In this document: positions 34,787 to 60,756 of the stretch, one piece after another | Position numbering within the stretch: position 1 is the stretch's first letter | Layout of the letters: each line of letters starts with the position of its first letter | Program-made: the position numbers and the translations under genes | Notes under the pieces: model-generated | What the model saw: only the letters and a program-made list of their open reading frames with translations | Databases searched by the model: none | What the model was told of the DNA's origin: nothing | Origin: Hydractinia symbiolongicarpus | Taxonomy: Eukaryota; Cnidaria; Hydrozoa; Anthoathecata; Hydractiniidae | Direction of reading: 5' to 3' | Length of the DNA stretch: 64,000 nucleotides | Assembly: GCF_029227915.1 (NCBI RefSeq) | Contig: NC_079876.1 | Coordinates: 31,841,828 to 31,905,827 of the forward strand

Positions 34787-34837
<51 letters not shown>

Positions 34838-35949: not shown

Positions 35950-36000
<51 letters not shown>

Positions 36001-37112: not shown

Positions 37113-37163
<51 letters not shown>

Positions 37164-37172
37164 TCGGCCATG
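36010..37172. repeat. Array unit 32 (type A)
   Basis: Minus: Ser(TGA) 36086-36167, Cys 36242-36313, Glu 36390-36461, Ser(AGA) 36559-36640, Thr 36699-36771, Phe 37096-37168 (C65 allele). Plus: Gly 36888-36958. C at 36128 puts a G-G mismatch in the Ser(TGA) anticodon stem. Confidence 0.95.
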
Positions 37173-38275: not shown

Positions 38276-38326
<51 letters not shown>

Positions 38327-38335
38327 TCGGCCATG
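37173..38335. repeat. Array unit 33 (type A)
   Basis: Minus: Ser(TGA) 37249-37330, Cys 37405-37476, Glu 37553-37624, Ser(AGA) 37722-37803, Thr 37862-37934, Phe 38259-38331. Plus: Gly 38051-38121. A at 37407 copies unit 31 at +2326. Confidence 0.95.
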
Positions 38336-39439
38336 ATCAATTCTATCACATGGCAAAGGTCTGTACGTTGTGATAGACACTTGACCAGATCAAAAAGAAT
38401 GTTTGAAGATTCACTGCGAGTAGGGTTCGAACCTACGCGGGAAGATCCCATTAGATTTCAAGTCTAACGCCTTAACCACTCGGCCATCGCAGCAGAAATT
38501 GCTGGGTAACCAGAATAATTCACCAGCTCACCACTCAGGTGCCGAAGAGGACAAAAAGCCAACTAGTAGGGGACACCCGGGTTTGAACCAGGGACCTCTC
38601 GATCTGCAGTCGAATGCTCTACCACTGAGCTATATCCCCAGCCAAGGACGGAATCCACGCACAGGGTATATAACATCAACGCGTGAGAGAGCAACTTACC
38701 TTGAAAAATGTACACTTCCCGCACCGGGAATCGAACCCGGGCCGCCTGGGTGAAAACCAGAAATCCTAACCACTAGACCATGCGGGACACATTCGCACCA
38801 CTAAGTAATTTAGATGTCATGCTTTTTCTGACAATTTGAACTAGCTCTGTCTTTCTGTTCGTGTCAAAAACACCTTTTTGCGTCCGCTGCGAGTAGGATT
38901 CGAACCTACGCGGGAAGATCCCATTTGATTTCTAGTCAAACGCCTTAACCACTCGGCCATCGCAGCCTGACAAACCGCTGGCCATTGCCACAAGGCCGAC
39001 CAGAAAGCACAACATTACTGCTAAAGGCACTGCCCGGATTTGAACCGGGGATCTCCTGTTTACTAGACAGGCGCTTTAACCGCTAAGCCACAGCGCCTGC
39101 CTGTTGGGAGATTTTGAAAATCTCAATATCACACGTCTGAAATGCCGTTAAGGCTACTAACACACCGGGACGTGATACACTGTCACTCGGAAATTTTGGA
39201 AATGAGTAGTAACGCATTGGTGGTTCAGTGGTAGAATTCTCGCCTGCCACGCGGGAGACCGGGGTTCGATTCCCCGCCAATGCATCGTGTTTTACCTACA
39301 CCAGAAAATACCCTCCGTAAAAAAGAAAGGAAGGAAAATAAATAAAAAAACATAGCTGAGGAAAAGTGCTACGGCTGCTTGCATTCACCACCTCAAACCG
39401 CCCTGCTGGGCAGTGATAAAATGCCGAGACCCGGGATTT

Positions 39440-39489
<50 letters not shown>

Positions 39490-39498
39490 TCGGCCATG
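38336..39498. repeat. Array unit 34 (type A)
   Basis: Minus: Ser(TGA) 38412-38493, Cys 38568-38639, Glu 38716-38787, Ser(AGA) 38885-38966, Thr 39025-39097, Phe 39422-39494 (B-box C56A). Plus: Gly 39214-39284. A at 38413 gives Ser(TGA) a G1-U72 pair. Two changes lie near 38698 beside the Glu terminator, which keeps T5. Confidence 0.95.
39422..39494 (-). pseudogene. tRNA-Phe of unit 34 with B-box C56A
   Basis: T at 39439 changes GGTTCAATC to GGTTAAATC. This is the same class of hit as in unit 25 Cys, in a different gene, and a likely inactive copy. Confidence 0.6.
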
Positions 39499-40600
39499 AT
39501 CAATTCTATCACATGGCAAAGGTCTGTACGTTGTGATAGACACTTGACCAGATCAAAAAGAATGTTTGAAGATTCGCTGCGAGTAGGGTTCGAACCTACG
39601 CGGGAAGATCCCATTAGATTTCAAGTCTAACGCCTTAACCACTCGGCCATCGCAGCAGAAATTGCTGGGTAACCAGAATAATTCACCAGCTCACCACTCA
39701 GGTGCCGAAGAGGACAAAAAGCCAACTAGTAGGGGACACCCGGGTTTGAACCAGGGACCTCTCGATCTGCAGTCGAATGCTCTACCACTGAGCTATATCC
39801 CCAGCCAAGGACGGAATCCACGCACAGGGTATATAACATCAACGCGTGAGAGAGCAACTTAACTTAAAAAATGTACACTTCCCGCACCGGGAATCGAACC
39901 CGGGCCGCCTGGGTGAAAACCAGAAATCCTAACCACTAGACCATGCGGGACACATTCGCACCACTAAGTAATTTAGATGTCATGCTTTTTCTGACAATTT
40001 GAACTAGCTCTGTCTTTCTGTTCGTGTCAAAAACACCTTTTTGCGTCCGCTGCGAGTAGGATTCGAACCTACGCGGGAAGATCCCATTTGATTTCTAGTC
40101 AAACGCCTTAACCACTCGGCCATCGCAGCCTGACAAACCGCTGGCCATTGCCACAAGGCCGACCAGAAAGCACAACATTACTGCTAAAGGCACTGCCCGG
40201 ATTTGAACCGGGGATCTCCTGTTTACTAGACAGGCGCTTTAACCGCTAAGCCACAGCGCCTGCCTGTTGGGAGATTTTGAAAATCTCAATATCACACGTC
40301 TGAAATGCCGTTAAGGCTACTAACACACCGGGACGTGATACACTGTCACTCGGAAATTTTGGAAATGAGTAGTAACGCATTGGTGGTTCAGTGGTAGAAT
40401 TCTCGCCTGCCACGCGAGAGACCGGGGTTCGATTCCCCGCCAATGCATCGTGTTTTACCTACACCAGAAAATACCCTCCGTAAAAAGAAAGGAAGGAAAA
40501 TAAATAAAAAAACATAGCTGAGGAAAAGTGCTACGGCTGCTTGCATTCACCACCCCAAACCGCCCTGCTGGGCAGTGATAAAATGCCGAGAGCCGGGATT

Positions 40601-40651
<51 letters not shown>

Positions 40652-40660
40652 TCGGCCATG
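39499..40660. repeat. Array unit 35 (type A, 1162 bp)
   Basis: Minus: Ser(TGA) 39575-39656, Cys 39731-39802, Glu 39879-39950, Ser(AGA) 40048-40129, Thr 40188-40260, Phe 40584-40656 (C65 allele). Plus: Gly 40377-40447. A at 40417 (Gly), one A lost near 40485, and the Phe allele recur together in unit 43. Confidence 0.95.
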
Positions 40661-41762
40661 ATCAATTCTATCACATGGCAAAGGTCTGTACGTTGTGATA
40701 GACACTTGACCAGATCAAAAAGAATGTTTGAAGATTCGCTGCGAGTAGGGTTCGAACCTACGCGGGAAGATCCCATTAGATTTCAAGTCTAACACCTTAA
40801 CCACTCGGCCATCGCAGCAGAAATTGCTGGGTAACCAGAATAATTCACCAGCTCACCACTCAGGTGCCGAAGAGGACAAAAAGCCAACTAGTAGGGGACA
40901 CCCGGGTTTGAACCAGGGACCTCTCGATCTGCAGTCGAATGCTCTACCACTGAGCTATATCCCCAGCCAAGGACGGAATCCACGCACAGGGTATATAACA
41001 TCAACGCGTGAGAGAGCAACTTAACTTAAAAAATGTACACTTCCCGCACCGGGAATCGAACCCGGGCCGCCTGGGTGAAAACCAGAAATCCTAACCACTA
41101 GACCATGCGGGACACGTTCGCACCACTAAGTAATTTAGATGTCATGCTTTTTCTGACAATTTGAACTAGCTCTGTCTTTCTGTTCGTGTCAAAAACACCT
41201 TTTTGCGTCCGCTGCGAGTAGGATTCGAACCTACGCGGGAAGATCCCATTTGATTTCTAGTCAAACGCCTTAACCACTCGGCCATCGCAGCCTGACAAAC
41301 CGCTGGCCATTGCCACAAGGCCGACCAGAAAGCACAACATTACTGCTAAAGGCACTGCCCGGATTTGAACCGGGGATCTCCTGTTTACTAGACAGGCGCT
41401 TTAACCGCTAAGCCACAGCGCCTGCCTGTTGGGAGATTTTGAAAATCTCAATATCACACGTCTGAAATGCCGTTAAGGCTACTAACACACCGGGACGTGA
41501 TACACTGTCACTCGGAAATTTTGGAAATGAGTAGTAACGCATTGGTGGTTCAGTGGTAGAATTCTCGCCTGCCACGCGGGAGACCGGGGTTCGATTCCCC
41601 GCCAATGCATCGTTTTTTACCTACACCAGAAATACCCTCCGTAAAAAAGAAAGGAAGGTAAATAAATAAAAAAACATAGCTGAGGAAAAGTGCTACGGCT
41701 GCTTGCATTCACCACCTCAAACCGCCCTGCTGGGCAGTGATAAAATGCCGAGACCCGGGATT

Positions 41763-41813
<51 letters not shown>

Positions 41814-41822
41814 TCGGCCATG
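40661..41822. repeat. Array unit 36 (type A, 1162 bp)
   Basis: Minus: Ser(TGA) 40737-40818, Cys 40893-40964, Glu 41041-41112, Ser(AGA) 41210-41291, Thr 41350-41422, Phe 41746-41818. Plus: Gly 41539-41609. Gly terminator extended to T6; one A lost near 41632. Confidence 0.95.
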
Positions 41823-42925
41823 ATCAATTCTATCACATGGCAAAGGTCTGTACGTTGTGATAGACACTTGACCAGATCAAAAAGAATGTTTGAAGATTCG
41901 CTGCGAGTAGGGTTCGAACCTACGCGGGAAGATCCCATTAGATTTCAAGTCTAACGCCTTAACCACTCGGCCATCGCAGCAGAAATTGCTGGGTAACCAG
42001 AATAATTCACCAGCTCACCACTCAGGTGCCGAAGAGGACAAAAAGCCAACTAGTAGGGGACACCCGGGTTTGAACCAGGGACCTCTCGATCTGCAGTCGA
42101 ATGCTCTACCACTGAGCTATATCCCCAGCCAAGGACGGAATCCACGCACAGGGTATATAACATCAACGCGTGAGAGAGCAACTTAACTTAAAAAATGTAC
42201 ACTTCCCGCACCGGGAATCGAACCCGGGCCGCCTGGGTGAAAACCAGAAATCCTAACCACTAGACCATGCGGGACACATTCGCACCACTAAGTAATTTAG
42301 ATGTCATGCTTTTTCTGACAATTTGAACTAGCTCTGTCTTTCTGTTCGTGTCAAAAACACCTTTTTGCGTCCGCTGCGAGTAGGATTCGAACCTACGCGG
42401 GAAGATCCCATTTGATTTCTAGTCAAACGCCTTAACCACTCGGCCATCGCAGCCTGACAAACCGCTGGCCATTGCCACAAGGCCGACCAGAAAGCACAAA
42501 ATTACTGCTAAAGGCACTGCCCGGATTTGAACCGGGGATCTCCTGTTTACTAGACAGGCGCTTTAACCGCTAAGCCACAGCGCCTGCCTGTTGGGAGATT
42601 TTGAAAATCTCAATATCACACGTCTGAAATGCCGTTAAGGCTACTAACACACCGGGACGTGATACACTGTCACTCGGAAATTTTGGAAATGAGTAGTAAC
42701 GCATTGGTGGTTCAGTGGTAGAATTCTCGCCTGCCACGCGGGAGACCGGGGTTCGATTCCCCGCCAATGCATCGTGTTTTACCTACACCAGAAAATACCC
42801 TCCGTAAAAAAGAAAGGAAGGAAAATAAATAAAAAAACATAGCTGAGGAAAAGTGCTACGGCTGCTTGCATTCACCACCTCAAACCGCCCTGCTGGGCAG
42901 TGATAAAATGCCGAGACCCGGGATT

Positions 42926-42976
<51 letters not shown>

Positions 42977-42985
42977 TCGGCCATG
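41823..42985. repeat. Array unit 37 (type A)
   Basis: Minus: Ser(TGA) 41899-41980, Cys 42055-42126, Glu 42203-42274, Ser(AGA) 42372-42453, Thr 42512-42584, Phe 42909-42981. Plus: Gly 42701-42771. New T4 after Thr at 42498-42501, as in unit 30. Confidence 0.95.
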
Positions 42986-44088
42986 ATCAATTCTATCACA
43001 TGGCAAAGGTCTGTACGTTGTGATAGACACTTGACCAGATCAAAAAGAATGTTTGAAGATTCGCTGCGAGTAGGGTTCGAACCTACGCGGGAAGATCCCA
43101 TTAGATTTCAAGTCTAACGCCTTAACCACTCGGCCATCGCAGCAGAAATTGCTGGGTAACCAGAATAATTCACCAGCTCACCACTCAGGTGCCGAAGAGG
43201 ACAAAAAGCCAACTAGTAGGGGACACCCGGGTTTGAACCAGGGACCTCTCGATCTGCAGTCGAATGCTCTACCACTGAGCTATATCCCCAGCCAAGGACG
43301 GAATCCACGCACAGGGTATATAACATCAACGCGTGAGAGAGCAACTTAACTTAAAAAATGTACACTTCCCGCACCGGGAATCGAACCCGGGCCGCCTGGG
43401 TGAAAACCAGAAATCCTAACCACTAGACCATGCGGGACACATTCGCACCACTAAGTAATTTAGATCTCATGCTTTTTCTGACAATTTGAACTAGCTCTGT
43501 CTTTCTGTTCGTGTCAAAAACACCTTTTTGCGTCCGCTGCGAGTAGGATTCGAACCTACGCGGGAAGATCCCATTTGATTTCTAGTCAAACGCCTTAACC
43601 ACTCGGCCATCGCAGCCTGACAAACCGCTGGCCATTGCCACAAGGCCGACCAGAAAGCACAACATTACTGCTAAAGGCACTGCCCGGATTTGAACCGGGG
43701 ATCTCCTGTTTACTAGACAGGCGCTTTAACCGCTAAGCCACAGCGCCTGCCTGTTGGGAGATTTTGAAAATCTCAATATCACACGTCTGAAATGCCGTTA
43801 AGGCTACTAACACACCGGGACGTGATACACTGTCACTCGGAAATTTTGGAAATGAGTAGTAACGCATTGGTGGTTCAGTGGTAGAATTCTCGCCTGCCAC
43901 GCGGGAGACCGGGGTTCGATTCCCCGCCAATGCATCGTGTTTTACCTACACCAGAAAATACCCTCCGTAAAAAAGAAAGGAAGGAAAATAAATAAAAAAA
44001 CATAGCTGAGGAAAAGTGCTACGGCTGCTTGCATTCACCACCTCAAACCGCCCTGCTGGGCAGTGATAAAATGCCGAGACCCGGGATT

Positions 44089-44139
<51 letters not shown>

Positions 44140-44148
44140 TCGGCCATG
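42986..44148. repeat. Array unit 38 (type A)
   Basis: Minus: Ser(TGA) 43062-43143, Cys 43218-43289, Glu 43366-43437, Ser(AGA) 43535-43616, Thr 43675-43747, Phe 44072-44144. Plus: Gly 43864-43934. Only a spacer change near 43466 noted. Confidence 0.95.
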
Positions 44149-45251
44149 ATCAATTCTATCACATGGCAAAGGTCTGTACGTTGTGATAGACACTTGACCA
44201 GATCAAAAAGAATGTTTGAAGATTCGCTGCGAGTAGGGTTCGAACCTACGCGGGAAGATCCCATTGGATTTCAAGTCTAACGCCTTAACCACTCGGCCAT
44301 CGCAGCAGAAATTGCTGGGTAACCAGAATAATTCACCAGCTCACCACTCAGGTGCCGAAGAGGACAAAAATCCAACTAGTAGGGGACACCCGGGTTTGAA
44401 CCAGGGACCTCTCGATCTGCAGTCGAATGCTCTACCACTGAGCTATATCCCCAGCCAAGGACGGAATCCACGCACAGGGTATATAACATCAACGCGTGAG
44501 AGAGCAACTTAACTTAAAATATGTACACTTCCCGCACCGGGAATCGAACCCGGGCCGCCTGGGTGAAAACCAGAAATCCTAACCACTAGACCATGCTGGA
44601 CACATTCGCACCACTAAGTAATTTAGATGTCATGCTTTTTCTGACAATTTGAACTAGCTCTGTCTTTCTGTTCGTGTCAAAAACACCTTTTTGCGTCCGC
44701 TGCGAGTAGGATTCGAACCTACGCGGGAAGATCCCATTTGATTTCTAGTCAAACGCCTTAACCACTCGGCCATCGCAGCCTGACAAACCTCTGGCCATTG
44801 CCACAAGGCCGACCAGAAAGCACAACATTACTGCTAAAGGCACTGCCCGGATTTGAACCGGGGATCTCCTGTTTACTAGACAGGCGCTTTAACCGCTAAG
44901 CCACAGCGCCTGCCTGTTGGGAGATTTTGAAAATCTCAATCTCACACGTCTGAAATGCCGTTAAGGCTACTAACACACCGGGACGTGATACACTGTCACT
45001 CGGAAAATTTGGAAATGAGTAGTAACGCATTGGTGATTCAGTGGAAGAATTCTCGCCTGCCACGCGGGAGACCGGGGTTCGATTCTCCGCCAATGCATCG
45101 TGTTTTACCTACACCAGAAAATACCCTCCGTAAAAAAGAAAGGAAGGAAAATAAATAAAAAAACATAGCTGAGGAAAAGTGCTACGGCTGCTTGCATTCA
45201 CCACCTCAAACCGCCCTGCTGGGCAGTGATAAAATGCCGAGAGCCGGGATT

Positions 45252-45302
<51 letters not shown>

Positions 45303-45311
45303 TCGGCCATG
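44149..45311. repeat. Array unit 39 (type A, most diverged interior unit)
   Basis: Minus: Ser(TGA) 44225-44306, Cys 44381-44452, Glu 44529-44600 (acceptor mismatch), Ser(AGA) 44698-44779, Thr 44838-44910, Phe 45235-45307 (C65 allele). Plus: Gly 45027-45097 (three changes). More spacer changes near 44371, 44518, 44789, 44941 and 45007. Confidence 0.95.
45027..45097 (+). pseudogene. Diverged tRNA-Gly of unit 39
   Basis: Three substitutions in 71 nt: G10A (45036), a D-loop T to A (45045) inside the A box, and a T-stem C to T (45086, tolerated as G-U). Anticodon GCC is intact. It is the most altered Gly copy and sits in the most diverged unit. Confidence 0.5.
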
Positions 45312-46414
45312 ATCAATTCTATCACATGGCAAAGGTCTGTACGTTGTGATAGACACTTGACCAGATCAAAAAGAATGTTTGAAGATTCGCTGCGAGTAGG
45401 GTTCGAACCTACGCGGGAAGATCCCATTAGATTTCAAGTCTAACGCCTTAACCACTCGGCCATCGCAGCAGAAATTGCTGGGTAACCAGAATAATTCACC
45501 AGCTCACCACTCAGGTGCCGAAGAGGACAAAAAGCCAACTAGTAGGGGACACCCGGGTTTGAACCAGGGACCTCTCGATCTGCAGTCGAATGCTCTACCA
45601 CTGAGCTATATCCCCAGCCAAGGACGGAATCCACGCACAGGGTATATAACATCAACGCGTGAGAGAGCAACTTAACTTAAAAAATGTACACTTCCCGCAC
45701 CGGGAATCGAACCCGGGCCGCCTGGGTGAAAACCAGAAATCCTAACCACTAGACCATGCGGGACACATTCGCACCACTAAGTAATTTAGATGTCATGCTT
45801 TTTCTGACAATTTGAACTAGCTCTGTCTTTCTGTTCGTGTCAAAAACACCTTTTTGCGTCCGCTGCGAGTAGGATTCGAACCTACGCGGGAAGATCCCAT
45901 TTGATTTCTAGTCAAACGCCTTAACCACTCGGCCATCGCAGCCTGACAAACCGCTGGCCATTGCCACAAGGCCGACCAGAAAGCACAACATTACTGCTAA
46001 AGGCACTGCCCGGATTTGAACCGGGGATCTCCTGTTTACTAGACAGGCGCTTTAACCGCTAAGCCACAGCGCCTGCCTGTTGGGAGATTTTGAAAATCTC
46101 AATATCACACGTCTGAAATGCCGTTAAGGCTACTAACACACCGGGACGTGATACACTGTCACTCGGAAATTTTGGAAATGAGTAGTAACGCATTGGTGGT
46201 TCAGTGGTAGAATTCTCGCCTGCCACGCGGGAGACCGGGGTTCGATTCCCCGCCAATGCATCGTGTTTTACCTACACCAGAAAATACCCTCCGTAAAAAA
46301 GAAAGGAAGGAAAATAAATAAAAAAACATAGCTGAGGAAAAGTGCTACGGCTGCTTGCATTCACCACCTCAAACCGCCCTGCTGGGCAGTGATAAAATGC
46401 CGAGAGCCGGGATT

Positions 46415-46465
<51 letters not shown>

Positions 46466-46474
46466 TCGGCCATG
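45312..46474. repeat. Array unit 40 (type A)
   Basis: Minus: Ser(TGA) 45388-45469, Cys 45544-45615, Glu 45692-45763, Ser(AGA) 45861-45942, Thr 46001-46073, Phe 46398-46470 (C65 allele). Plus: Gly 46190-46260. Confidence 0.95.
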
Positions 46475-47577
46475 ATCAATTCTATCACATGGCAAAGGTC
46501 TGTACGTTGTGATAGACACTTGACCAGATCAAAAAGAATGTTTGAAGATTCGCTGCGAGTAGAGTTCGAACCTACGCGGGAAGATCCCATTAGATTTCAA
46601 GTCTAACGCCTTAACCACTCGGCCATCGCAGCAGAAATTGCTGGGTAACCAGAATAATTCACCAGCTCACCACTCAGGTGCCGAAGAGGAAAAAAAGCCA
46701 ACTAGTAGGGGACACCCGGGTTTGAACCAGGGACCTCTCGATCTGCAGTCGAATGCTCTACCACTGAGCTATATCCCCAGCCAAGGACGGAACCCACGCA
46801 CAGGGTATATAACATCAACGCGTGAGAGAGCAACTTAACTTAAAAAATGTACACTTCCCGCACCGGGAATCGAACCCGGGCCGCCTGGGTGAAAACCAGA
46901 AATCCTAACCACTAGACCATGCGGGACACATTCGCACCACTAAGTAATTTAGATGTCATGCTTTTTCTGACAATTTGAACTAGCTCTGTCTTTCTGTTCG
47001 TGTCAAAAACACCTTTTTGCGTCCGCTGCGAGTAGGATTCGAACCTACGCGGGAAGATCCCATTTGATTTCTAGTCAAACGCCTTAACCACTCGGCCATC
47101 GCAGCCTGACAAACCGCTGGCCATTGCCACAAGGCCGACCAGAAAGCACAACATTACTGCTAAAGGCACTGCCCGGATTTGAACCGGGGATCTCCTGTTT
47201 ACTAGACAGGCGCTTTAACCGCTAAGCCACAGCGCCTGCATGTTGGGAGATTTTGAAAATCTCAATATCACACGTCTGAAATGCCGTTAAGGCTACTAAC
47301 ACACCGGGACGTGATACACTGTCACTCGGAAATTTTGGAAATGAGTAGTAACGCATTGGTGGTTCAGTGGTAGAATTCTCGCCTGCCACGCGGGAGACCG
47401 GGGTTCGATTCCCCGCCAATGCATCGTGTTTTACCTACACCAGAAAATACCCTCCGTAAAAAAGAAAGGAAGGAAAATAAATAAAAAAACATAGCTGAGG
47501 AAAAGTGCTACGGCTGCTTGCATTCACCACCTCAAACCGCCCTGCTGGGCAGTGATAAAATGCCGAGACCCGGGATT

Positions 47578-47628
<51 letters not shown>

Positions 47629-47637
47629 TCGGCCATG
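46475..47637. repeat. Array unit 41 (type A)
   Basis: Minus: Ser(TGA) 46551-46632, Cys 46707-46778, Glu 46855-46926, Ser(AGA) 47024-47105, Thr 47164-47236, Phe 47561-47633. Plus: Gly 47353-47423. Ser(TGA) T-stem change near 46563; Cys terminator lengthened to T7 near 46690. Confidence 0.95.
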
Positions 47638-48800
47638 ATCAATTCTATCACATGGCAAAGGTCTGTACGTTGTGATAGACACTTGACCAGATCAAAAAGA
47701 ATGTTTGAAGATTCGCTGCGAGTAGGGTTCGAACCTACGCGGGAAGATCCCATTAGATTTCAAGTCTAACGCCTTAACCACTCGGCCATCGCAGCAGAAA
47801 TTGCTGGGTAACCAGAATAATTCACCAACTCACCACTCAGGTGCCGAAGAGGACAAAAAGCCAACTAGTAGGGGACACCCGGGTTTGAACCAGGGACCTC
47901 TCGATCTGCAGTCGAATGCTCTACCACTGAGCTATATCCCCAGCCAAGGACGGAATCCACGCACAGGGTATATAACATCAACGCGTGAGAGAGCAACTTA
48001 ACTTAAAAAATGTACACTTCCCGCACCGGGAATCGAACCCGGGCCGCCTGGGTGAAAACCAGAAATCCTAACCACTAGACCATGCGGGACACATTCGCAC
48101 CACTAAGTAATTTAGATGTCCTGCTTTTTCTGACAATTTGAACTAGCTCTGTCTTTCTGTTCGTGTCAAAAACACCTTTTTGCGTCCGCTGCGAGTAGGA
48201 TTCGAACCTACGCGGGAAGATCCCATTTGATTTCTAGTCAAACGCCTTAACCACTCGGCCATCGCAGCCTGACAAACCGCTTGCCATTGCCACAAGGCCG
48301 ACCAGAAAGCACAACATTACTGCTAAAGGCACTGCCCGGATTTGAACCGGGGATCTCCTGTTTACTAGACAGGCGCTTTAACCGCTAAGCCACAGCGCCT
48401 GCCTGTTGGGAGATTTTGAAAATCTCAATATCACACGTCTGAAATGCCGTTAAGGCTACTAACACACCGGGACGTGATACACTGTCACTCGGAAATTTTG
48501 GAAATGAGTAGTAACGCATTGGTGGTTCAGTGGTAGAATTCTCGCCTGCCACGCGGGAGACCGGGGTTCGATTCCCCGCCAATGCATCGTGTTTTACCTA
48601 CACCAGAAAATACCCTCCGTAAAAAAGAAAGGAAGGAAAATAAATAAAAAAAAATAGCTGAGGAAAAGTGCTACGGCTGCTTGCATTCACCACCTCAAAC
48701 CGCCCTGCTGGGCAGTGATAAAATGCCGAGACCCGGGATTGAACCAGGGACCTTCAGATCTTCACTCTGACGCTCTCCCAACTGAGCTATCTCGGCCATG
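47638..48800. repeat. Array unit 42 (type A)
   Basis: Minus: Ser(TGA) 47714-47795, Cys 47870-47941, Glu 48018-48089, Ser(AGA) 48187-48268, Thr 48327-48399, Phe 48724-48796 (C32G at 48765). Plus: Gly 48516-48586. Confidence 0.95.
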
Positions 48801-49902
48801 ATCAATTCTATCACATGGCAAAGGTCTGTATGTTGTGATAGACACTTGACCAGATCAAAAAGAATGTTTGAAGATTCGCTGCGAGTAGGGTTCGAACCTA
48901 CGCGGGAAGATCCCATTAGATTTCAAGTCTAACGCCTTAACCACTCGGCCATCGCAGCAGAAATTGCTGGGTAACCAGAATAATTTACCAGCTCACCACT
49001 CAGGTGCCGAAGAGGACAAAAAGCCAACTAGTAGGGGACACCCGGGTTTGAACCAGGGACCTCTCGATCTGCAGTCGAATGCTCTACCACTGAGCTATAT
49101 CCCCAGCCAAGGACGGAATCCACGCACAGGGTATATAACATCAACGCGTGAGAGAGCAACTTAACTTAAAAAATGTACACTTCCCGCACCGGGAATCGAA
49201 CCCGGGCCGCCTGGGTGAAAACCAGAAATCCTAACCACTAGACCATGCGGGACACATTCGCACCACTAAGTAATTTAGATGTCATGCTTTTTCTGACAAT
49301 TTGAACTAGCTCTGTCTTTCTGTTCGTGTCAAAAACACCTTTTTGCGTCCGCTGCGAGTAGGATTCGAACCTACGCGGGAAGATCCCATTTGATTTCTAG
49401 TCAAACGCCTTAACCACTCGGCCATCGCAGCCTGACAAACCGCTGGCCATTGCCACAAGGCCGACCAGAAAGCACAACATTACTGCTAAAGGCACTGCCC
49501 GGATTTGAACCGGGGATCTCCTGTTTACTAGACAGGCGCTTTAACCGCTAAGCCACAGCGCCTGCCTGTTGGGAGATTTTGAAAATCTCAATATCACACG
49601 TCTGAAATGCCGTTAAGGCTACTAACACACCGGGACGTGATACACTGTCACTCGGAAATTTTGGAAATGAGTAGTAACGCATTGGTGGTTCAGTGGTAGA
49701 ATTCTCGCCTGCCACGCGAGAGACCGGGGTTCGATTCCCCGCCAATGCATCGTGTTTTACCTACACCAGAAAATACCCTCCGTAAAAAGAAAGGAAGGAA
49801 AATAAATAAAAAAACATAGCTGAGGAAAAGTGCTACGGCTGTTTGCATTCACCACCTCAAACCGCCCTGCTGGGCAGTGATAAAATGCCGAGAGCCGGGA
49901 TT

Positions 49903-49953
<51 letters not shown>

Positions 49954-49962
49954 TCGGCCATG
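48801..49962. repeat. Array unit 43 (type A, 1162 bp)
   Basis: Minus: Ser(TGA) 48877-48958, Cys 49033-49104, Glu 49181-49252, Ser(AGA) 49350-49431, Thr 49490-49562, Phe 49886-49958 (C65 allele). Plus: Gly 49679-49749 (A at 49719). The variant set copies unit 35, eight units to the left. Confidence 0.95.
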
Positions 49963-51065
49963 ATCAATTCTATCACATGGCAAAGGTCTGTACGTTGTGA
50001 TAGACACTTGACCAGATCAAAAAGAATGTTTGAAGATTCGCTGCGAGTAGGGTTCGAACCTACGCGGGAAGATCCCATTAGATTTCAAGTCTAACGCCTT
50101 AACCACTCGGCCATCGCAGCAGAAATTGCTGGGTAACCAGAATAATTCACCAGCTCACCACTCAGGTGCCGAAGAGGACAAAAAGCCAACTAGTAGGGGA
50201 CACCCGGGTTTGAACCAGGGACCTCTCGATCTGCAGTCGAATGCTCTACCACTGAGCTATATCCCCAGCCAAGGACGGAATCCACGCACAGGGTATATAA
50301 CATCAACGCGTGAGAGAGCAACTTAACTTAAAAAATGTACACTTCCCGCACCGGGAATCGAACCCGGGCCGCCTGGGTGAAAACCAGAAATCCTAACCAC
50401 TAGACCATGCGGGTCACATTCGCACCACTAAGTAATTTAGATGTCATGCTTTTTCTGACAATTTGAACTAGCTCTGTCTTTCTATTCGTGTCAAAAACAC
50501 CTTTTTGCGTCCGCTGCGAGTAGGATTCGAACCTACGCGGGAAGATCCCATTTGATTTCTAGTCAAACGCCTTAACCACTCGGCCATCGCAGCCTGACAA
50601 ACCGCTGGCCATTGCCACAAGGCCGACCAGAAAGCACAACATTACTGCTAAAGGCACTGCCCGGATTTGAACCGGGGATCTCCTGTTTACTAGACAGGCG
50701 CTTTAACCGCTAAGCCACAGCGCCTGCCTGTTGGGAGATTTTGAAAATCTCAATATCACACGTCTGAAATGCCGTTAAGGCTACTAACACACCGGGACGT
50801 GATACACTGTCACTCGGAAATTTTGGAAATGAGTAGTAACGCATTGGTGGTTCAGTGGTAGAATTCTCGCCTGCCACGCGGGAGACCGGGGTTCGATTCC
50901 CCGCCAATGCATCGTGTTTTACCTACACCAGAAAATACCCTCTGTAAAAAAGAAAGACAGGAAAATAAATAAAAAAACATAGCTGAGGAAAAGTGCTACG
51001 GCTGCTTGCATTCACCACCTCAAACCGCCCTGCTGGGCAGTGATAAAATGCCGAGACCCGGGATT

Positions 51066-51116
<51 letters not shown>

Positions 51117-51125
51117 TCGGCCATG
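49963..51125. repeat. Array unit 44 (type A)
   Basis: Minus: Ser(TGA) 50039-50120, Cys 50195-50266, Glu 50343-50414, Ser(AGA) 50512-50593, Thr 50652-50724, Phe 51049-51121. Plus: Gly 50841-50911. T at 50414 gives Glu a 1-72 mismatch. An altered Gly-Phe spacer near 50942-50958 is shared with unit 45. Confidence 0.95.
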
Positions 51126-52228
51126 ATCAATTCTATCACATGGCAAAGGTCTGTACGTTGTGATAGACACTTGACCAGATCAAAAAGAATGTTTGAAGAT
51201 TCGCTGCGAGTAGGGTTCGAACCTACGCGGGAAGATCCCATTAGATTACAAGTCTAACGCCTTAACCACTCGGCCATCGCAGCAGAAATTGCTGGGTAAC
51301 CAGAATAATTCACCAGCTCACCACTCAGGTGCCGAAGAGGACAAAAAGCCAACTAGTAGGGGACACCCGGGTTTGAACCAGGGACCTCTCGATCTGCAGT
51401 CGAATGCTCTACCACTGAGCTCTATCCCCAGCCAAGGACGGAATCCACGGACAGGGTATATAACATCAACGCGTGAGAGAGCAACTTAACTTAAAAAATG
51501 TACACTTCCCGCACCGGGAATCGAACCCGGGCCGCCTGGGTGAAAACCAGAAATCCTAACCACTAGACCATGCGGGACACATTCGCACCACTAAGTAATT
51601 TAGATGTCATGCTTTTTCTGACAATTTGAACTAGCTCTGTCTTTCTGTTCGTGTCAAAAACACCTTTTTGCGTCCGCTGCGAGTAGGATTCGAACCTACG
51701 CGGGAAGATCCCATTTGATTTCTAGTCAAACGCCTTAACCACTCGGCCATCGCAGCCTGACAAACCGCTGGCCATTGCCACAAGGCCGACCAGAAAGCAC
51801 AACATTACTGCTAAAGGCACTGCCCGGATTTGAACCGGGGATCTCCTGTTTACTAGACAGGCGCTTTAACCGCTAAGCCACAGCGCCTGCCTGTTGGGAG
51901 ATTTTGAAAATCTCAATATCACACGTCTGAAATGCCGTTAAGGCTACTAACACACCGGGACGTGATACACTGTCACTCGGAAATTTTGGAAATGAGTAGT
52001 AACGCATTGGTGGTTCAGTGGTAGAATTCTCGCCTGCCACGCGGGAGACCGGGGTTCGATTCCCCGCCAATGCATCGTGTTTTACCTACACCAGAAAATA
52101 CCCTCTGTAAAAAAGAAAGACAGGAAAATAAATAAAAAAACATAGCTGAGGAAAAGTGCTACGGCTGCTTGCATTCACCACCTCAAACCGCCCTGCTGGG
52201 CAGTGATAAAATGCCGAGACCCGGGATT

Positions 52229-52279
<51 letters not shown>

Positions 52280-52288
52280 TCGGCCATG
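51126..52288. repeat. Array unit 45 (type A, carries the TGT-anticodon serine tRNA)
   Basis: Minus: Ser body with anticodon TGT 51202-51283, Cys 51358-51429, Glu 51506-51577, Ser(AGA) 51675-51756, Thr 51815-51887, Phe 52212-52284. Plus: Gly 52004-52074. Cys has a change near 51422; a flank variant near 51449 recurs in unit 46. Confidence 0.95.
51202..51283 (-). tRNA. Serine-type tRNA with threonine anticodon TGT (unit 45)
   Basis: Identical to the array's Ser(TGA) gene except A at 51248, which makes the anticodon loop CTTGTAA and the anticodon TGT (reads ACA, threonine). Acceptor stem, G discriminator and long variable arm are intact. Seryl-tRNA synthetase recognises these and not the anticodon, so it should charge this tRNA with serine. 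Internal promoter and T5 terminator are normal. If expressed, it would insert serine at ACA codons. It could instead be a silent copy. Confidence 0.9.
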
Positions 52289-53451
52289 ATCAATTCTATC
52301 ACATGGCAAAGGTCTGTACGTTGTGATAGACACTTGACCAGATCAAAAAGAATGTTTGAAGATTCGCTGCGAGTAGGGTTCGAACCTACGCGGGAAGATC
52401 CCATTAGATTACAAGTCTAACGCCTTAACCACTCGGCCATCGCAGCAGAAATTGCTGGGTAACCAGAATAATTCACCAGCTCACCACTCAGGTGCCGAAG
52501 AGGACAAAAAGCCAACTAGTAGGGGACACCCGGGTTTGAACCAGGGACCTCTCAATCTGCAGTCGAATGCTCTACCACTGAGCTATATCCCCAGCCAAGG
52601 ACGGAATCCACGGACAGGGTATATAACATCAACGCGTGAGAGAGCAACTTAACTTAAAAAATGTACACTTCCCGCACCGGGAATCGAACCCGGGCCGCCT
52701 GGGTGAAAACCAGAAATCCTAACCACTAGACCATGCGGGACACATTCGCACCACTAAGTAATTTAGATGTCATGCTTTTTCTGACAATTTGAACTAGCTC
52801 TGTCTTTCTGTTCGTGTCAAAAACACCTTTTTGCGTCCGCTGCGAGTAGGATTCGAACCTACGCGGGAAGATCCCATTTGATTTCTAGTCAAACGCCTTA
52901 ACCACTCGGCCATCGCAGCCTGACAAACCGCTGGCCATTGCCACAAGGCCGACCAGAAAGCACAACATTACTGCTAAAGGCACTGCCCGGATTTGAACCG
53001 GGGATCTCCTGTTTACTAGACAGGCGCTTTAACCGCTAAGCCACAGCGCCTGCCTGTTGGGAGATTTTGAAAATCTCAATATCACACGTCTGAAATGCCG
53101 TTAAGGCTACTAAAACACCGGGACGTGATACACTGTCACTCGGAAATTTTGGAAATGAGTAGTAACGCATTGGTGGTTCAGTGGTAGAATTCTCGCCTGC
53201 CACGCGGGAGACCGGGGTTCGATTCCCCGCCAATGCATCGTGTTTTACCTACACCAGAAAATACCCTCCGTAAAAAAGAAAGGAAGGAAAATAAATAAAA
53301 AAACATAGCTGAGGAAAAGTGCTACGGCTGCTTGCATTCACCACCTCAAACCGCCCTGCTGGGCAGTGATAAAATGCCGAGACCCGGGATTGAACCAGGG
53401 ACCTTCAGATCTTCAGTTTGACGCTCTCCCAACTGAGCTATCTCAGCCATG
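52289..53451. repeat. Array unit 46 (type A, carries the TGT-anticodon serine tRNA)
   Basis: Minus: Ser body with anticodon TGT 52365-52446, Cys 52521-52592, Glu 52669-52740, Ser(AGA) 52838-52919, Thr 52978-53050, Phe 53375-53447 (two changes). Plus: Gly 53167-53237. Confidence 0.95.
52365..52446 (-). tRNA. Serine-type tRNA with threonine anticodon TGT (unit 46)
   Basis: Second copy of the anticodon-switched gene, with A at 52411, exactly 1163 bp after the first. It was carried by a one-unit duplication that also copied the variant spacer near 50942/52105 and the flank change near 51449/52612. No other change in the tRNA. Confidence 0.9.
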
Positions 53452-54554
53452 ATCAATTCTATCACATGGCAAAGGTCTGTACGTTGTGATAGACACTTGA
53501 CCAGATCAAAAAGAATGTTTGAAGATTCGCTGCGAGTAGGGTTCGAACCTACGCGGGAAGATCCCATTAGATTTCAAGTCTAACGCCTTAACCACTCGGC
53601 CATCGCAGCAGAAATTGCTGGGTAACCAGAATAATTCACCAGCTCACCACTCAGGTGCCGAAGAGGACAAAAAGCCAACTAGTAGGGGACACCCGGGTTT
53701 GAACCAGGGACCTCTCGATCTGCAGTCGAATGCTCTACCACTGAGCTATATCCCCAGCCAAGGACGGAATCCACGCACAGGGTATATAACATCAACGCGT
53801 GAGAGAGCAACTTAACTTAAAAAATGTACACTTCCCGCACCGGGAATCGAACCCGGGCCGCCTGGGTGAAAACCAGAAATCCTAACCACTAGACCATGCG
53901 GGACACATTCGCACCACTAAGTAATTTAGATGTCATGCTTTTTCTGACAATTTGAACTAGCTCTGTCTTTCTGTTCGTGTCAAAAACACCTTTTTGCGTC
54001 CGCTGCGAGTAGGATTCGAACCTACGCGGGAAGATCCCATTTGATTTCTAGTCAAACGCCTTAACCACTCGGCCATCGCAGCCTGACAAACCGCTGGCCA
54101 TTGCCACAAGGCCGACCAGAAAGCACAACATTACTGCTAAAGGCACTGCCCGGATTTGAACCGGGGATCTCCTGTTTACTAGACAGGCGCTTTAACCGCT
54201 AAGCCACAGCGCCTGCCTGTTGGGAGATTTTGAAAATCTCAATATCACACGTCTGAAATGCCGTTAAGGCTACTAACACACCGGGACGTGATACACTGTC
54301 ACTCGGAAATTTTGGAAATGAGTAGTAACGCATTGGTGGTTCAGTGGTAGAATTCTCGCCTGCCACGCGGGAGACCGGGGTTCGATTCCCCGCCAATGCA
54401 TCGTGTTTTACCTACACCAGAAAATACCCTCCGTAAAAAAGAAAGGAAGGAAAATAAATAAAAAAACATAGCTGAGGAAAAGTGCTACGGCTGCTTGCAT
54501 TCACCACCTCAAACCGCCCTGCTGGGCAGTGATAAAATGCCGAGAGCCGGGATT

Positions 54555-54591
<37 letters not shown>

Positions 54592-54614
54592 TCAACTGAG
54601 CTATCTCGGCCATG
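53452..54614. repeat. Array unit 47 (type A)
   Basis: Minus: Ser(TGA) 53528-53609, Cys 53684-53755, Glu 53832-53903, Ser(AGA) 54001-54082, Thr 54141-54213, Phe 54538-54610 (C65 allele plus a D-loop change near 54592). Plus: Gly 54330-54400. Confidence 0.95.
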
Positions 54615-55717
54615 ATCAATTCTATCACATGGCAAAGGTCTGTACGTTGTGATAGACACTTGACCAGATCAAAAAGAATGTTTGAAGATTCGCTGCGAGT
54701 AGGGTTCGAACCTACGCGGGAAGATCCCATTAGATTTCAAGTCTAACGCCTTAACCACTCGGCCATCGCAGCAGAAATTGCTGGGTAACCAGAATAATTC
54801 ACCAGCTCACCACTCAGGTGCCGAAGAGGACAAAAAGCCAACTAGTAGGGGACACCCGGGTTTGAACCAGGGACCTCTCGATCTGCAGTCGAATGCTCTA
54901 CCACTGAGCTATATCCCCAGCCAAGGACGGAATCCACGCACAGGGTATATAACATCAACGCGTGAGAGAGCAACTTAACTTAAAAAATGTACATTTCCCG
55001 CACCGGGAATCGAACCCGGGCCGCCTGGGTGAAAACCAGAAATCCTAACCACTAGACCATGCGGGACACATTCGCACCACTAAGTAATTTAGATGTCATG
55101 CTTTTTCTGACAATTTGAACTAGCTCTGTCTTTCTGTTCGTGTCAAAAACACCTTTTTGCGTCCGCTGCGAGTAGGATTCGAACCTACGCGGGAAGATCC
55201 CATTTGATTTCTAGTCAAACGCATTAACCACTCGGCCATCGCAGCCTGACAAACCGCTGGCCATTGCCACAAGGCCGACCAGAAAGCACAACATTACTGC
55301 TAAAGGCACTGCCCGGATTTGAACCGGGGATCTCCTGTTTACTAGACAGGCGCTTTAACCGCTAAGCCACAGCGCCTGCCTGTTGGGAGATTTTGAAAAT
55401 CTCAATATCACACGTCTGAAATGCCGTTAAGGCTACTAACACACCGGGACGTGATACACTGTCACTCGGAAATTTTGGAAATGAGTAGTAACGCATTGGT
55501 GGTTCAGTGGTAGAATTCTCGCCTGCCACGCGGGAGACCGGGGTTCGATTCCCCGCCAATGCATCGTGTTTTACCTACACCAGAAAATACCCTCCGTAAA
55601 AAAGAAAGGAAGGAAAATAAATAAAAAAACATAGCTGAGGAAAAGTGCTACGGCTGCTTGCATTCACCACCTCAAACCGCCCTGCTGGGCAGTGATAAAA
55701 TGCCAAGAGCCGGGATT

Positions 55718-55757
<40 letters not shown>

Positions 55758-55777
55758 GCTGAGCTATCTCGGCCATG
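54615..55777. repeat. Array unit 48 (type A)
   Basis: Minus: Ser(TGA) 54691-54772, Cys 54847-54918, Glu 54995-55066, Ser(AGA) 55164-55245 (A at 55223), Thr 55304-55376, Phe 55701-55773 (C65 allele plus 55705 and 55758). Plus: Gly 55493-55563. T at 54994 and both Phe changes recur in unit 50 at +2326. Confidence 0.95.
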
Positions 55778-56880
55778 ATCAATTCTATCACATGGCAAAG
55801 GTCTGTACGTTGTGATAGACACTTGACCAGATCAAAAAGAATGTTTGAAGATTCGCTGCGAGTAGGGTTCGAACCTACGCGGGAAGATCCCATTAGATTT
55901 CAAGTCTAACGCCTTAACCACTCGGCCATCGCAGCAGAAATTGCTGGGTAACCAGAATAATTCACCAGCTCACCACTCAGGTGCCGAAGAGGACAAAAAG
56001 CCAACTAGTAGGGGACACCCGGGTTTGAACCAGGGACCTCTCGATCTGCAGTCGAATGCTCTACCACTGAGCTATATCCCCAGCCAAGGACGGAATCCAC
56101 GCACAGGGTATATAACATCAACGCGTGAGAGAGCAACTTAACTTAAAAAATGTACACTTCCCGCACCGGGAATCGAACCCGGGCCGCCTGGGTGAAAACC
56201 AGAAATCCTAACCACTAGACCATGCGGGACACATTCGCACCACTAAGTAATTTAGATGTCATGCTTTTTCTGACAATTTGAACTAGCTCTGTCTTTCTGT
56301 TCGTGTCAAAAACACCTTTTTGCGTCCGCTGCGAGTAGGATTCGAACCTACGCGGGAAGATCCCATTTGATTTCTAGTCAAACGCCTTAACCACTCGGCC
56401 ATCGCAGCCTGACAAACCGCTGGCCATTGCCACAAGGCCGACCAGAAAGCACAACATTACTGCTAAAGGCACTGCCCGGATTTGAACCGGGGATCTCCTG
56501 TTTACTAGACAGGCGCTTTAACCGCTAAGCCACAGCGCCTGCCTGTTGGGAGATTTTGAAAATCTCAATATCACACGTCTGAAATGCCGTTAAGGCTACT
56601 AACACACCGGGACGTGATACACTGTCACTCGGAAATTTTGGAAATGAGTAGTAACGCATTGGTGGTTCAGTGGTAGAATTCTCGCCTGCCACGCGGGAGA
56701 CCGGGGTTCGATTCCCCGCCAATGCATCGTGTTTTACCTACACCAGAAAATACCCTCCGTAAAAAAGAAAGGAAGGAAAATAAATAAAAAAACATAGCTG
56801 AGGAAAAGTGCTACGGCTGCTTGCATTCACCACCTCAAACCGCCCTGCTGGGCAGTGATAAAATGCCGAGAGCCGGGATT

Positions 56881-56931
<51 letters not shown>

Positions 56932-56940
56932 TCGGCCATG
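55778..56940. repeat. Array unit 49 (type A)
   Basis: Minus: Ser(TGA) 55854-55935, Cys 56010-56081, Glu 56158-56229, Ser(AGA) 56327-56408, Thr 56467-56539, Phe 56864-56936 (C65 allele). Plus: Gly 56656-56726. Confidence 0.95.
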
Positions 56941-58043
56941 ATCAATTCTATCACATGGCAAAGGTCTGTACGTTGTGATAGACACTTGACCAGATCAAAA
57001 AGAATGTTTGAAGATTCGCTGCGAGTAGGGTTCGAACCTACGCGGGAAGATCCCATTAGATTTCAAGTCTAACGCCTTAACCACTCGGCCATCGCAGCAG
57101 AAATTGCTGGGTAACCAGAATAATTCACCAGCTCACCACTCAGGTGCCGAAGAGGACAAAAAGCCAACTAGTAGGGGACACCCGGGTTTGAACCAGGGAC
57201 CTCTCGATCTGCAGTCGAATGCTCTACCACTGAGCTATATCCCCAGCCAAGGACGGAATCCACGCACAGGGTATATAACATCAACGCGTGAGAGAGCAAC
57301 TTAACTTAAAAAATGTACATTTCCCGCACCGGGAATCGAACCCGGGCCGCCTGGGTGAAAACCAGAAATCCTAACCACTAGACCATGCGGGACACATTCG
57401 CACCACTAAGTAATTTAGATGTCATGCTTTTTCTGACAATTTGAACTAGCTCTGTCTTTCTGTTCGTGTCAAAAACACCTTTTTGCGTCCGCTGCGAGTA
57501 GGATTCGAACCTACGCGGGAAGATCCCATTTGATTTCTAGTCAAACGCCTTAACCACTCGGCCATCGCAGCCTGACAAACCGCTGGCCATTGCCACAAGG
57601 CCGACCAGAAAGCACAACATTACTGCTAAAGGCACTGCCCGGATTTGAACCGGGGATCTCCTGTTTACTAGACAGGCGCTTTAACCGCTAAGCCACAGCG
57701 CCTGCCTGTTGGGAGATTTTGAAAATCTCAATATCACACGTCTGAAATGCCGTTAAGGCTACTAACACACCGGGACGTGATACACTGTCACTCGGAAATT
57801 TTGGAAATGAGTAGTAACGCATTGGTGGTTCAGTGGTAGAATTCTCGCCTGCCACGCGGGAGACCGGGGTTCGATTCCCCGCCAATGCATCGTGTTTTAC
57901 CTACACCAGAAAATACCCTCCGTAAAAAAGAAAGGAAGGAAAATAAATAAAAAAACATAGCTGAGGAAAAGTGCTACGGCTGCTTGCATTCACCACCTCA
58001 AACCGCCCTGCTGGGCAGTGATAAAATGCCAAGAGCCGGGATT

Positions 58044-58083
<40 letters not shown>

Positions 58084-58103
58084 GCTGAGCTATCTCGGCC
58101 ATG
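56941..58103. repeat. Array unit 50 (type A)
   Basis: Minus: Ser(TGA) 57017-57098, Cys 57173-57244, Glu 57321-57392, Ser(AGA) 57490-57571, Thr 57630-57702, Phe 58027-58099 (C65 allele plus 58031 and 58084). Plus: Gly 57819-57889. T at 57320 copies unit 48. Confidence 0.95.
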
Positions 58104-59206
58104 ATCAATTCTATCACATGGCAAAGGTCTGTACGTTGTGATAGACACTTGACCAGATCAAAAAGAATGTTTGAAGATTCGCTGCGAGTAGGGTTCGAAC
58201 CTACGCGGGAAGATCCCATTAGATTTCAAGTCTAACGCCTTAACCACTCGGCCATCGCAGCAGAAATTGCTGGGTAACCAGAATAATTCACCAGCTCACC
58301 ACTCAGGTGCCGAAGAGGACAAAAAGCCAACTAGTAGGGGACACCCGGGTTTGAACCAGGGACCTCTCGATCTGCAGTCGAATGCTCTACCACTGAGCTA
58401 TATCCCCAGCCAAGGACGGAATCCACGCACAGGGTATATAACATCAACGCGTGAGAGAGCAACTTAACTTAAAAAATGTACACTTCCCGCACCGGGAATC
58501 GAACCCGGGCCGCCTGGGTGAAAACCAGAAATCCTAACCACTAGACCATGCGGGACACATTCGCACCACTAAGTAATTTAGATGTCATGCTTTTTCTGAC
58601 AATTTGAACTAGCTCTGTCTTTCTGTTCGTGTCAAAAACACCTTTTTGCGTCCGCTGCGAGTAGGATTCGAACCTACGCGGGAAGATCCCATTTGATTTC
58701 TAGTCAAACGCCTTAACCACTCGGCCATCGCAGCCTGACAAACCGCTGGCCATTGCCACAAGGCCGACCAGAAAGCACAACATTACTGCTAAAGGCACTG
58801 CCCGGATTTGAACCGGGGATCTCCTGTTTACTAGACAGGCGCTTTAACCGCTAAGCCACAGCGCCTGCCTGTTGGGAGATTTTGAAAATCTCAATATCAC
58901 ACGTCTGAAATGCCGTTAAGGCTACTAACACACCGGGACGTGATACACTGTCACTCGGAAATTTTGGAAATGAGTAGTAACGCATTGGTGGTTCAGTGGT
59001 AGAATTCTCGCCTGCCACGCGGGAGACCGGGGTTCGATTCCCCGCCAATGCATCGTGTTTTACCTACACCAGAAAATACCCTCCGTAAAAAAGAAAGGAA
59101 GGAAAATAAATAAAAAAACATAGCTGAGGAAAAGTGCTACGGCTGCTTGCATTCACCACCTCAAACCGCCCTGCTGGGCAGTGATAAAATGCCGAGACCC
59201 GGGATT

Positions 59207-59257
<51 letters not shown>

Positions 59258-59266
59258 TCGGCCATG
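58104..59266. repeat. Array unit 51 (type A)
   Basis: Minus: Ser(TGA) 58180-58261, Cys 58336-58407, Glu 58484-58555, Ser(AGA) 58653-58734, Thr 58793-58865, Phe 59190-59262. Plus: Gly 58982-59052. No private gene variant noticed. Confidence 0.95.
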
Positions 59267-60369
59267 ATCAATTCTATCACATGGCAAAGGTCTGTACGTT
59301 GTGATAGACACTTGACCAGATCAAAAAGAATGTTTGAAGATTCGCTGCGAGTAGGGTTCGAACCTACGCGGGAAGATCCCATTAGATTTCAAGTCTAACG
59401 CCTTAACCACTCGGCCATCGCAGCAGAAATTGCTGGGTAACCAGAATAATTCACCAGCTCACCACTCAGGTGCCGAAGAGGACAAAAAGCCAACTAGTAG
59501 GGGACACCCGGGTTTGAACCAGGGACCTCTCGATCTGCAGTCGAATGCTCTACCACTGAGCTATATCCCCAGCCAAGGACGGAATCCACGCACAGGGTAT
59601 ATAACATCAACGCGTGAGAGAGCAACTTAACTTAAAAAATGTACACTTCCCGCACCGGGAATCGAACCCGGGCCGCCTGGGTGAAAACCAGAAATCCTAA
59701 CCACTAGACCATGCGGGACACATTCGCACCACTAAGTAATTTAGATGTCATGCTTTTTCTGACAATTTGAACTAGCTCTGTCTTTCTGTTCGTGTCAAAA
59801 ACACCTTTTTGCGTCCGCTGCGAGTAGGATTCGAACCTACGCGGGAAGATCCCATTTGATTTCTAGTCAAACGCCTTAACCACTCGGCCATCGCAGCCTG
59901 ACAAACCGCTGGCCATTGCCACAAGGCCGACCAGAAAGCACAACATTACTGCTAAAGGCACTGCCCGGATTTGAACCGGGGATCTCCTGTTTACTAGACA
60001 GGCGCTTTAACCGCTAAGCCACAGCGCCTGCCTGTTGGGAGATTTTGAAAATCTCAATATCACACGTCTGAAATGCCGTTAAGGCTACTAACACACCGGG
60101 ACGTGATACACTGTCACTCGGAAATTTTGGAAATGAGTAGTAACGCATTGGTGGTTCAGTGGTAGAATTCTCGCCTGCCACGCGGGAGACCGGGGTTCGA
60201 TTCCCCGCCAATGCATCGTGTTTTACCTACACCAGAAAATACCCTCCGTAAAAAAGAAAGGAAGGAAAATAAATAAAAAAACATAGCTGAGGAAAAGTGC
60301 TACGGCTGCTTGCATTCACCACCTCAAACCGCCCTGCTGGGCAGTGATAAAATGCCGAGACCCGGGATT

Positions 60370-60420
<51 letters not shown>

Positions 60421-60429
60421 TCGGCCATG
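59267..60429. repeat. Array unit 52 (type A), last intact unit
   Basis: Minus: Ser(TGA) 59343-59424, Cys 59499-59570, Glu 59647-59718, Ser(AGA) 59816-59897, Thr 59956-60028, Phe 60353-60425. Plus: Gly 60145-60215. No private gene variant noticed. Confidence 0.95.
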
Positions 60430-60505
60430 ATCAATTCTATCACATGGCAAAGGTCTGTACGTTGTGATAGACACTTGACCAGATCAAAAAGAATGTTTGA
60501 AGATT

Positions 60506-60587
60506 CGCTGCGAGTAAGGTTCGAACCTACGCGGGAAGATCCCATTAGATTTCAAGTCTAACGCCTTAACCACTCGGCCATCGCAGC
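60506..60587 (-). tRNA. tRNA-Ser(TGA) of unit 53
   Basis: Complete 82-nt copy with one T-stem change (GTAAGG for GTAGGG near 60518) that leaves a G-U pair. Its T5 terminator is present. The last intact gene before the damaged zone. Confidence 0.9.
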
Positions 60588-60639
60588 AGAAATTGCTGGG
60601 TAACCAGAATAATTCACCAGCTCACCACTCAGGTGCCGA

Positions 60640-60665
60640 AGAGGACAAAAAGGACGGAATCCACG
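60640..60665. other. 88-bp deletion junction removing tRNA-Cys in unit 53
   Basis: Reference unit sequence 224-311 is missing. The two breakpoints share the 3-bp AAG, so a microhomology-mediated deletion is likely. The Cys terminator's A5 run is retained next to the Cys upstream flank, with no gene between. Confidence 0.9.
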
Positions 60666-60722
60666 CACAGGGTTTATAACATCAACGCGTGAGAGAGCAA
60701 CTTAACTTAAAAAAATGTACAC

Positions 60723-60756
60723 TTCCCGCACCGGGAATCGAACCCGGGCCGCCTGG
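60723..60756 (-). pseudogene. 3' half of tRNA-Glu split by the LINE
   Basis: 34 nt covering the 3' strand of the anticodon stem, variable loop, T arm with intact B box, acceptor 3' strand and discriminator. It ends at the last stem base before the anticodon loop. The other half is at 63524. Confidence 0.92.

Follow-up and report, generated by a model that had tools for sequence, protein, structure and literature searches.

In a 64,000-nucleotide stretch of the Hydractinia symbiolongicarpus genome (hereafter the window), two adjacent units of a very large tRNA array carry tRNA-Ser genes whose anticodon reads TGT, an anticodon of threonine. We confirmed that both genes are real in the assembly. 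The reading that we favor, to which we give a probability of about 0.75, is that they stem from a near-neutral single mutation, duplicated once and diluted in a redundant array, and that their product, if made, is predicted to place serine weakly at ACA codons. The term given to these genes in the initial annotation, a natural mistranslating tRNA, is accordingly used here as a prediction.

The window lies on contig C2 of the 480.9-Mb genome. ARAGORN calls and unit cutting show that nearly all of it consists of tandemly repeated units of 1,163 bp. On its minus strand each unit holds Phe-GAA, Ser-TGA, Cys-GCA, Glu-TTC, Ser-AGA and Thr-AGT; Gly-GCC lies on the plus strand. The features on which the analysis turns are the following:

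1..60755, unstranded: tandem-array part of the window, in 1,163-bp units, from tRNA calls
51202..51283, minus strand: first copy of the TGT-anticodon tRNA-Ser gene, with the substitution at 51248 (ARAGORN, Rfam tRNA model)
52365..52446, minus strand: second copy of the TGT-anticodon tRNA-Ser gene, with the substitution at 52411 (ARAGORN, Rfam tRNA model)
51182..51186, minus strand: run of five T, a likely Pol III terminator, beginning 16 nt past the 3' end of the first TGT gene
52345..52349, minus strand: run of five T, beginning 16 nt past the 3' end of the second TGT gene

Altogether, 367 tRNA genes were called in the window by ARAGORN, and anchoring on the Phe gene cut it into 52 units, the final one incomplete. 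By this count the TGT genes sit in units 44 and 45, and not in units 45 and 46 as had been annotated. The array picks up again at about 63523, after an inserted element. This LINE-like element (about 60755-63523) splits the Glu tRNA gene of one array unit, which is also devoid of a Cys gene; its 852-aa open frame matches RVT_1 (E 1.7e-27) and, below the cut-off, an endonuclease, and the 5' end of the element has a 73-bp direct repeat. To the right of the window, up to about +189 kb, some units are missing several of the seven genes, e.g. Cys and Glu, or Phe and Ser. A second array of the same unit is found on the opposite strand of C2, at about 36.13 Mb, with A100T and G157A present in 17 of the 17 units read. 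For the wider comparisons below we used 206 of the 215 intervals anchored on the Gly gene, after dropping units outside 1,120-1,180 bp (among them the one bearing the insertion), and a second-array set in which all 17 units were retained, two of them clearly shortened.

Both TGT genes differ by a single base from the commonest Ser-TGA gene: the plus strand reads A at 51248 and at 52411, which corresponds to A36U in the tRNA. Otherwise they are intact. With the Rfam tRNA model they score 66.4 bits, against 66.3 for the two TGA genes of this 3.7-kb stretch. The first copy is predicted to fold exactly as a TGA gene does (-29.5 kcal/mol), and the position of the T runs downstream matches the array consensus. 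The predicted fold keeps the stem of the variable arm, the discriminator is G73, and the acceptor end starts with G1-C72 and C2-G71. The anticodon loop contains U36-A37-A38, and with A36U the modification of position 37 should be of the t6A type instead of i6A. ARAGORN call, Rfam score and fold all bear out the earlier proposal of one base change in an otherwise intact Ser(TGA) gene, in two adjacent units. A true Thr-TGT gene is ruled out, as the body is that of the Ser-TGA gene with one base changed and the Thr label given by ARAGORN reflects the anticodon only. A search for the exact 40-base region around the TGT anticodon in the readable part of the genome returned these two places and no third.

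The two genes share a history. In a register anchored on the Gly gene, the units that contain them are:

50831..51993, unstranded: first unit with the shared haplotype, with private A592C
51994..53156, unstranded: second unit with the shared haplotype, with G561A (found in one other unit) and private C1121A

Five SNPs are common to both (C113T, G127A, A128C, T418A and C620G), T418A being the anticodon change itself. Because the two units hold this haplotype in common and yet differ from each other, we conclude that there was one mutation followed by one single-unit duplication, upholding the earlier suggestion that array duplication had doubled the TGT copy. Two independent TGT mutations are ruled out by the same haplotype. 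The linked SNPs also bear on a possible error of assembly or consensus, a concern in tandem arrays, which are hard to assemble: neither random base error nor a plainly repeated contig would give units that share five linked SNPs but differ elsewhere, and we consider such an error extremely unlikely. CpG decay as the cause of the mutation was rejected, since the coding strand changed from A to T and the excess of CpG transitions is small (1.4 in tRNA, P 0.12; 1.6 in spacer, P 0.08). A duplication of this kind is the usual local turnover of the array: among variants found in two copies in the 206 units, 57 of 86 are at most 5 units apart, and 13 are in adjacent units, versus 0.8 expected by chance.

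An anticodon change is not surprising in this array. Variable sites are as frequent in tRNA genes as in spacers, both in the window (51/527 vs 61/636; odds ratio 1.01) and in the 206 units (193/524 vs 225/639; odds ratio 1.07, P 0.58). Window diversity, computed without the last partial unit and a 13-column block of spacer indels, is 0.0055 in tRNA vs 0.0058 in spacer. Since tRNA copies vary like spacer, anticodon changes are to be expected, and single copies look dispensable. At that rate 2.0 anticodon variants are expected in the window, with a probability of 0.89 of at least one. An excess of anticodon changes is hence rejected: about two are expected in the window, and the counts in 206 and 223 units fall below expectation. 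Across 294 kb examined, less 43 kb unread, 1,489 tRNA genes were found along with three other kinds of anticodon mutation, all on C2: a Gly-tRNA body with the Val anticodon GAC in one copy (window coordinate +113988), a Gly-tRNA body with the Asp anticodon GTC in two nearby units (starting at +165473 and +169819), and a Phe-tRNA with anticodon AAA, an isoacceptor shift, in one copy (window coordinate +117684). In 20 kb of the second array, one unit has a Glu body bearing the Gly anticodon TCC.

We also asked if anticodons vary less than the rest of the tRNA genes. In the 206 units, variation is seen at 3 of the 21 anticodon sites, where 7.1 to 7.5 would be expected once base context is considered (P 0.03 to 0.04, uncorrected), and adding the 17 units of the second array (223 units) gives 4 of 21 against 8.1 (P 0.047, uncorrected). 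Triples taken at a common offset are as low as the anticodon in 6 of 69 cases, some of which overlap the anticodon. Genome-wide counts of Ser genes through their exact 35-base context (readable genome) yield 530 genes with any anticodon and 525 with TGA, i.e. 5 shifted genes (3 forward, 2 reverse), with letters read for two of them and the other three obtained as a difference of counts. The sole control triple, in the D arm, gives 2 variants (527 vs 525) but is a poor control, because fetched copies vary little in that stretch. Among 227 fetched Ser copies there are 2 anticodon variants, versus some 3 per triple over the remaining 32 positions of this context (32 variant letters, three of which are unread letters in one copy). 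The second-array units weakened the early signal of a deficit, and the Ser counts gave it no clear support. We regard these data as a hint, at most, of selection against anticodon change in the array; a deficit, if real, would mean that array copies are not wholly neutral.

The TGT genes are heavily outnumbered. In the window they stand beside 51 Ser-TGA and 53 Thr-AGT genes; the array's own Thr copies are AGT and not TGT. Thr-AGT, with A34 converted to inosine, should also read ACA, adding competition. Genome-wide, the idea that other copies mask the effect holds, whereas the figure of some 50 copies of each kind was far too low: there are at least 525 normal Ser-TGA genes (exact 35-base context, readable genome) and 536 matches to a 35-place pattern for type I tRNAs with anticodon TGT, built from general features of tRNA-Thr and counting pattern matches, not whole genes. 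Serine TGT copies hence represent 2/538 of the ACA-type genes, or 0.37%. The matches listed for this pattern (about the first hundred) fall in an array with a period of 695 bp on contig C4. A 55-base TGT query with at most 2 mismatches hits 576 places (345 forward, 231 reverse), and the matches listed fall in two arrays on C2. A further tRNA array, with matches spaced about 1.3 kb, was noticed on contig C3, and first-look tRNA candidates number 49,105 genome-wide, of which 63 were scored.

What the TGT tRNA would do depends on the amino acid it receives. Published work places serine identity outside the anticodon, in the variable arm and, where the cytosolic SerRS of human and maize are concerned, also in G73 (PMC9976931); the earlier statement that SerRS ignores the anticodon agrees with this and with work in flies (PMC9976931, PMC11631534). 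In the latter, a designed Drosophila tRNA-Ser with the Thr anticodon AGU, weakened by G26A, caused Thr-to-Ser substitution with a developmental cost, as well as a longer life in females; in adults ACU and ACC codons were affected, and ACA was reported as not significantly so (PMC11631534). Given this anticodon-free identity and the fly result, the foremost prediction for an expressed gene is serine at ACA; serylation and Ser-for-Thr substitution at this codon are plausible if the TGT gene is transcribed.

We propose, as the most probable scenario, that the A36U substitution first occurred in a single tRNA-Ser(UGA) gene within a very large and redundant array, and that the unit carrying it was copied once by a one-unit tandem duplication, through unequal exchange or an equivalent process. 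The variant would persist because single copies are nearly dispensable and dilution is strong. If transcribed, the tRNA would be charged mainly with serine via its long variable arm and G73, and would read ACA. With equal expression of all genes, serine would replace threonine at about 0.4% of ACA codons at most, and at fewer given the competing inosine-34 Thr-AGU and whatever threonylation or ThrRS editing takes place. The sequence, the intact state of the genes, their duplication, their uniqueness in the readable genome and the copy numbers are observed directly, and we infer charging, decoding, level and near-neutrality.

How far the effect might extend beyond this, or fall short of it, is where the alternatives diverge. 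A functional natural mistranslator, transcribed, serylated and inserting serine at ACA often enough to matter to the animal, would be in line with the intact gene and its normal flanks, with the cost of the fly tRNA (PMC11631534), and with the weak deficit at anticodon sites over seven tRNAs, which is what selection against mistranslators would give. Yet two genes face 536 Thr-TGT-pattern matches (about 0.37%), serine anticodon variants are not rarer than variants at one control triple (5 vs 2 genome-wide), and in flies the AGU tRNA was reported to have no significant effect on ACA (PMC11631534). We deem this reading very unlikely. At the other extreme, the gene, or the whole array, could be silent and the variant without product, a possibility that is compatible with our preferred scenario and that we hold tentatively, as a serious one. 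tRNA bodies vary as much as spacers, and arrays of such size could be heterochromatic; however, in the 206-unit consensus 6 of 7 genes have a run of at least four T starting within 16 nt downstream, and the small CpG transition excess gives no sign of heavy germline methylation.

The TGT tRNA could also be a partial substrate of ThrRS, carrying some threonine or having its serine edited off, and be largely harmless. This is compatible with our preferred scenario except for the amino acid delivered. The mutation adds a Thr anticodon to the existing G1-C72 and C2-G71, so that ThrRS may charge or edit the tRNA: the main elements recognized by the E. coli enzyme include the Thr anticodon and these two pairs, A73 being non-essential there, and in yeast a Thr anticodon apparently turned tRNA-Lys and tRNA-Met into substrates of ThrRS, with no detectable mistranslation reported (PMC8092322). 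ThrRS also deacylates serine and alanine from tRNA-Thr (PMC7337962). On the other hand, G73 or C73 impairs threonylation in yeast (PMC9976931), and the E. coli and yeast enzymes differ on position 73, which is G in tRNA-Ser(TGT); the long variable arm may hinder ThrRS, and the fly tRNA-Ser(AGU) still inserted serine (PMC11631534). On balance we find this unlikely. A broader proposal is that tRNA mega-arrays in general act as a buffered reservoir of mistranslating tRNAs, their redundancy hiding a dominant harm while shifted copies (Ser TGT, Gly GAC/GTC, Glu TCC) keep arising, some being doubled by the turnover of units, so that the animal would have a low, individual-specific mistranslation, trimmed by selection only at the anticodon; we see this as speculative and quite unlikely.

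With its changed anticodon, the tRNA-Ser(UGU) described here joins a known class, the natural anticodon variants of tRNA-Ser. In humans, a G35A change turning tRNA-Ser(AGA) into AAA is carried by about 2% of people; the resulting tRNA is active and reportedly reads Phe codons as Ser (PMC9956149, PMC11415595). As in human tRNA-Ser variants, a natural gene here underwent a base change to a non-serine anticodon and serine charging is expected to persist; unlike the human AAA tRNA, the Hydractinia variant has a Thr anticodon and occupies two units of a tandem array. The Drosophila tRNA-Ser(AGU) resembles it in joining a tRNA-Ser(UGA) body to a Thr anticodon, with T-to-S substitution in the fly, but it is designed, bears AGU instead of UGU along with G26A, and was inserted as a single copy (PMC11631534). 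A survey of anticodon shifts in eukaryotes reported 75 shifts, of which 31 change identity and just one concerns a Ser or Sec anticodon; it suggested tRNA gene redundancy as an enabling factor (PMC3923123). Our case is likewise a single-base alloacceptor shift in a redundant tRNA family, although those shifts separate related species and this one separates copies within one array (PMC3923123). The yeast tRNA-Lys and tRNA-Met with CGU offer another parallel, with a change towards a Thr anticodon and a G1-C pair ending the acceptor stem, but whereas they apparently became ThrRS substrates, tRNA-Ser retains its own strong SerRS identity (PMC8092322). The open-licence literature that we consulted on related topics contained no report of a natural tRNA-Ser(UGU); as no search was aimed at that anticodon, we do not claim its absence. 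Many tRNA genes also lie in clusters or tandem units in Entamoeba (PMC2652664), and large tRNA clusters occur in Nematostella, zebrafish and stickleback (PMC2888827); the 1,163-bp seven-gene unit was not found in what we could consult of this literature on large tRNA arrays and clusters (PMC2652664, PMC2888827).

The effect on the proteome expected from the TGT locus alone is tiny. In large tRNA arrays, one can count what becomes of anticodon mutations over hundreds of near-identical genes. Should array copies be expressed, selection is expected to purge anticodon changes and to tolerate broken copies, something that the present data hint at but do not establish.

Two observations concern the Thr-AGT genes of the array. 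In the 206-unit consensus the 60 nt downstream of them contain no run of four T, which sets them apart from the remaining six genes. Their acceptor stem (e.g. in the gene at 50652-50724) contains G4:U69, a pair reported as strictly conserved in vertebrate tRNA-Thr and as making the tRNA mischargeable with alanine (PMC7337962).
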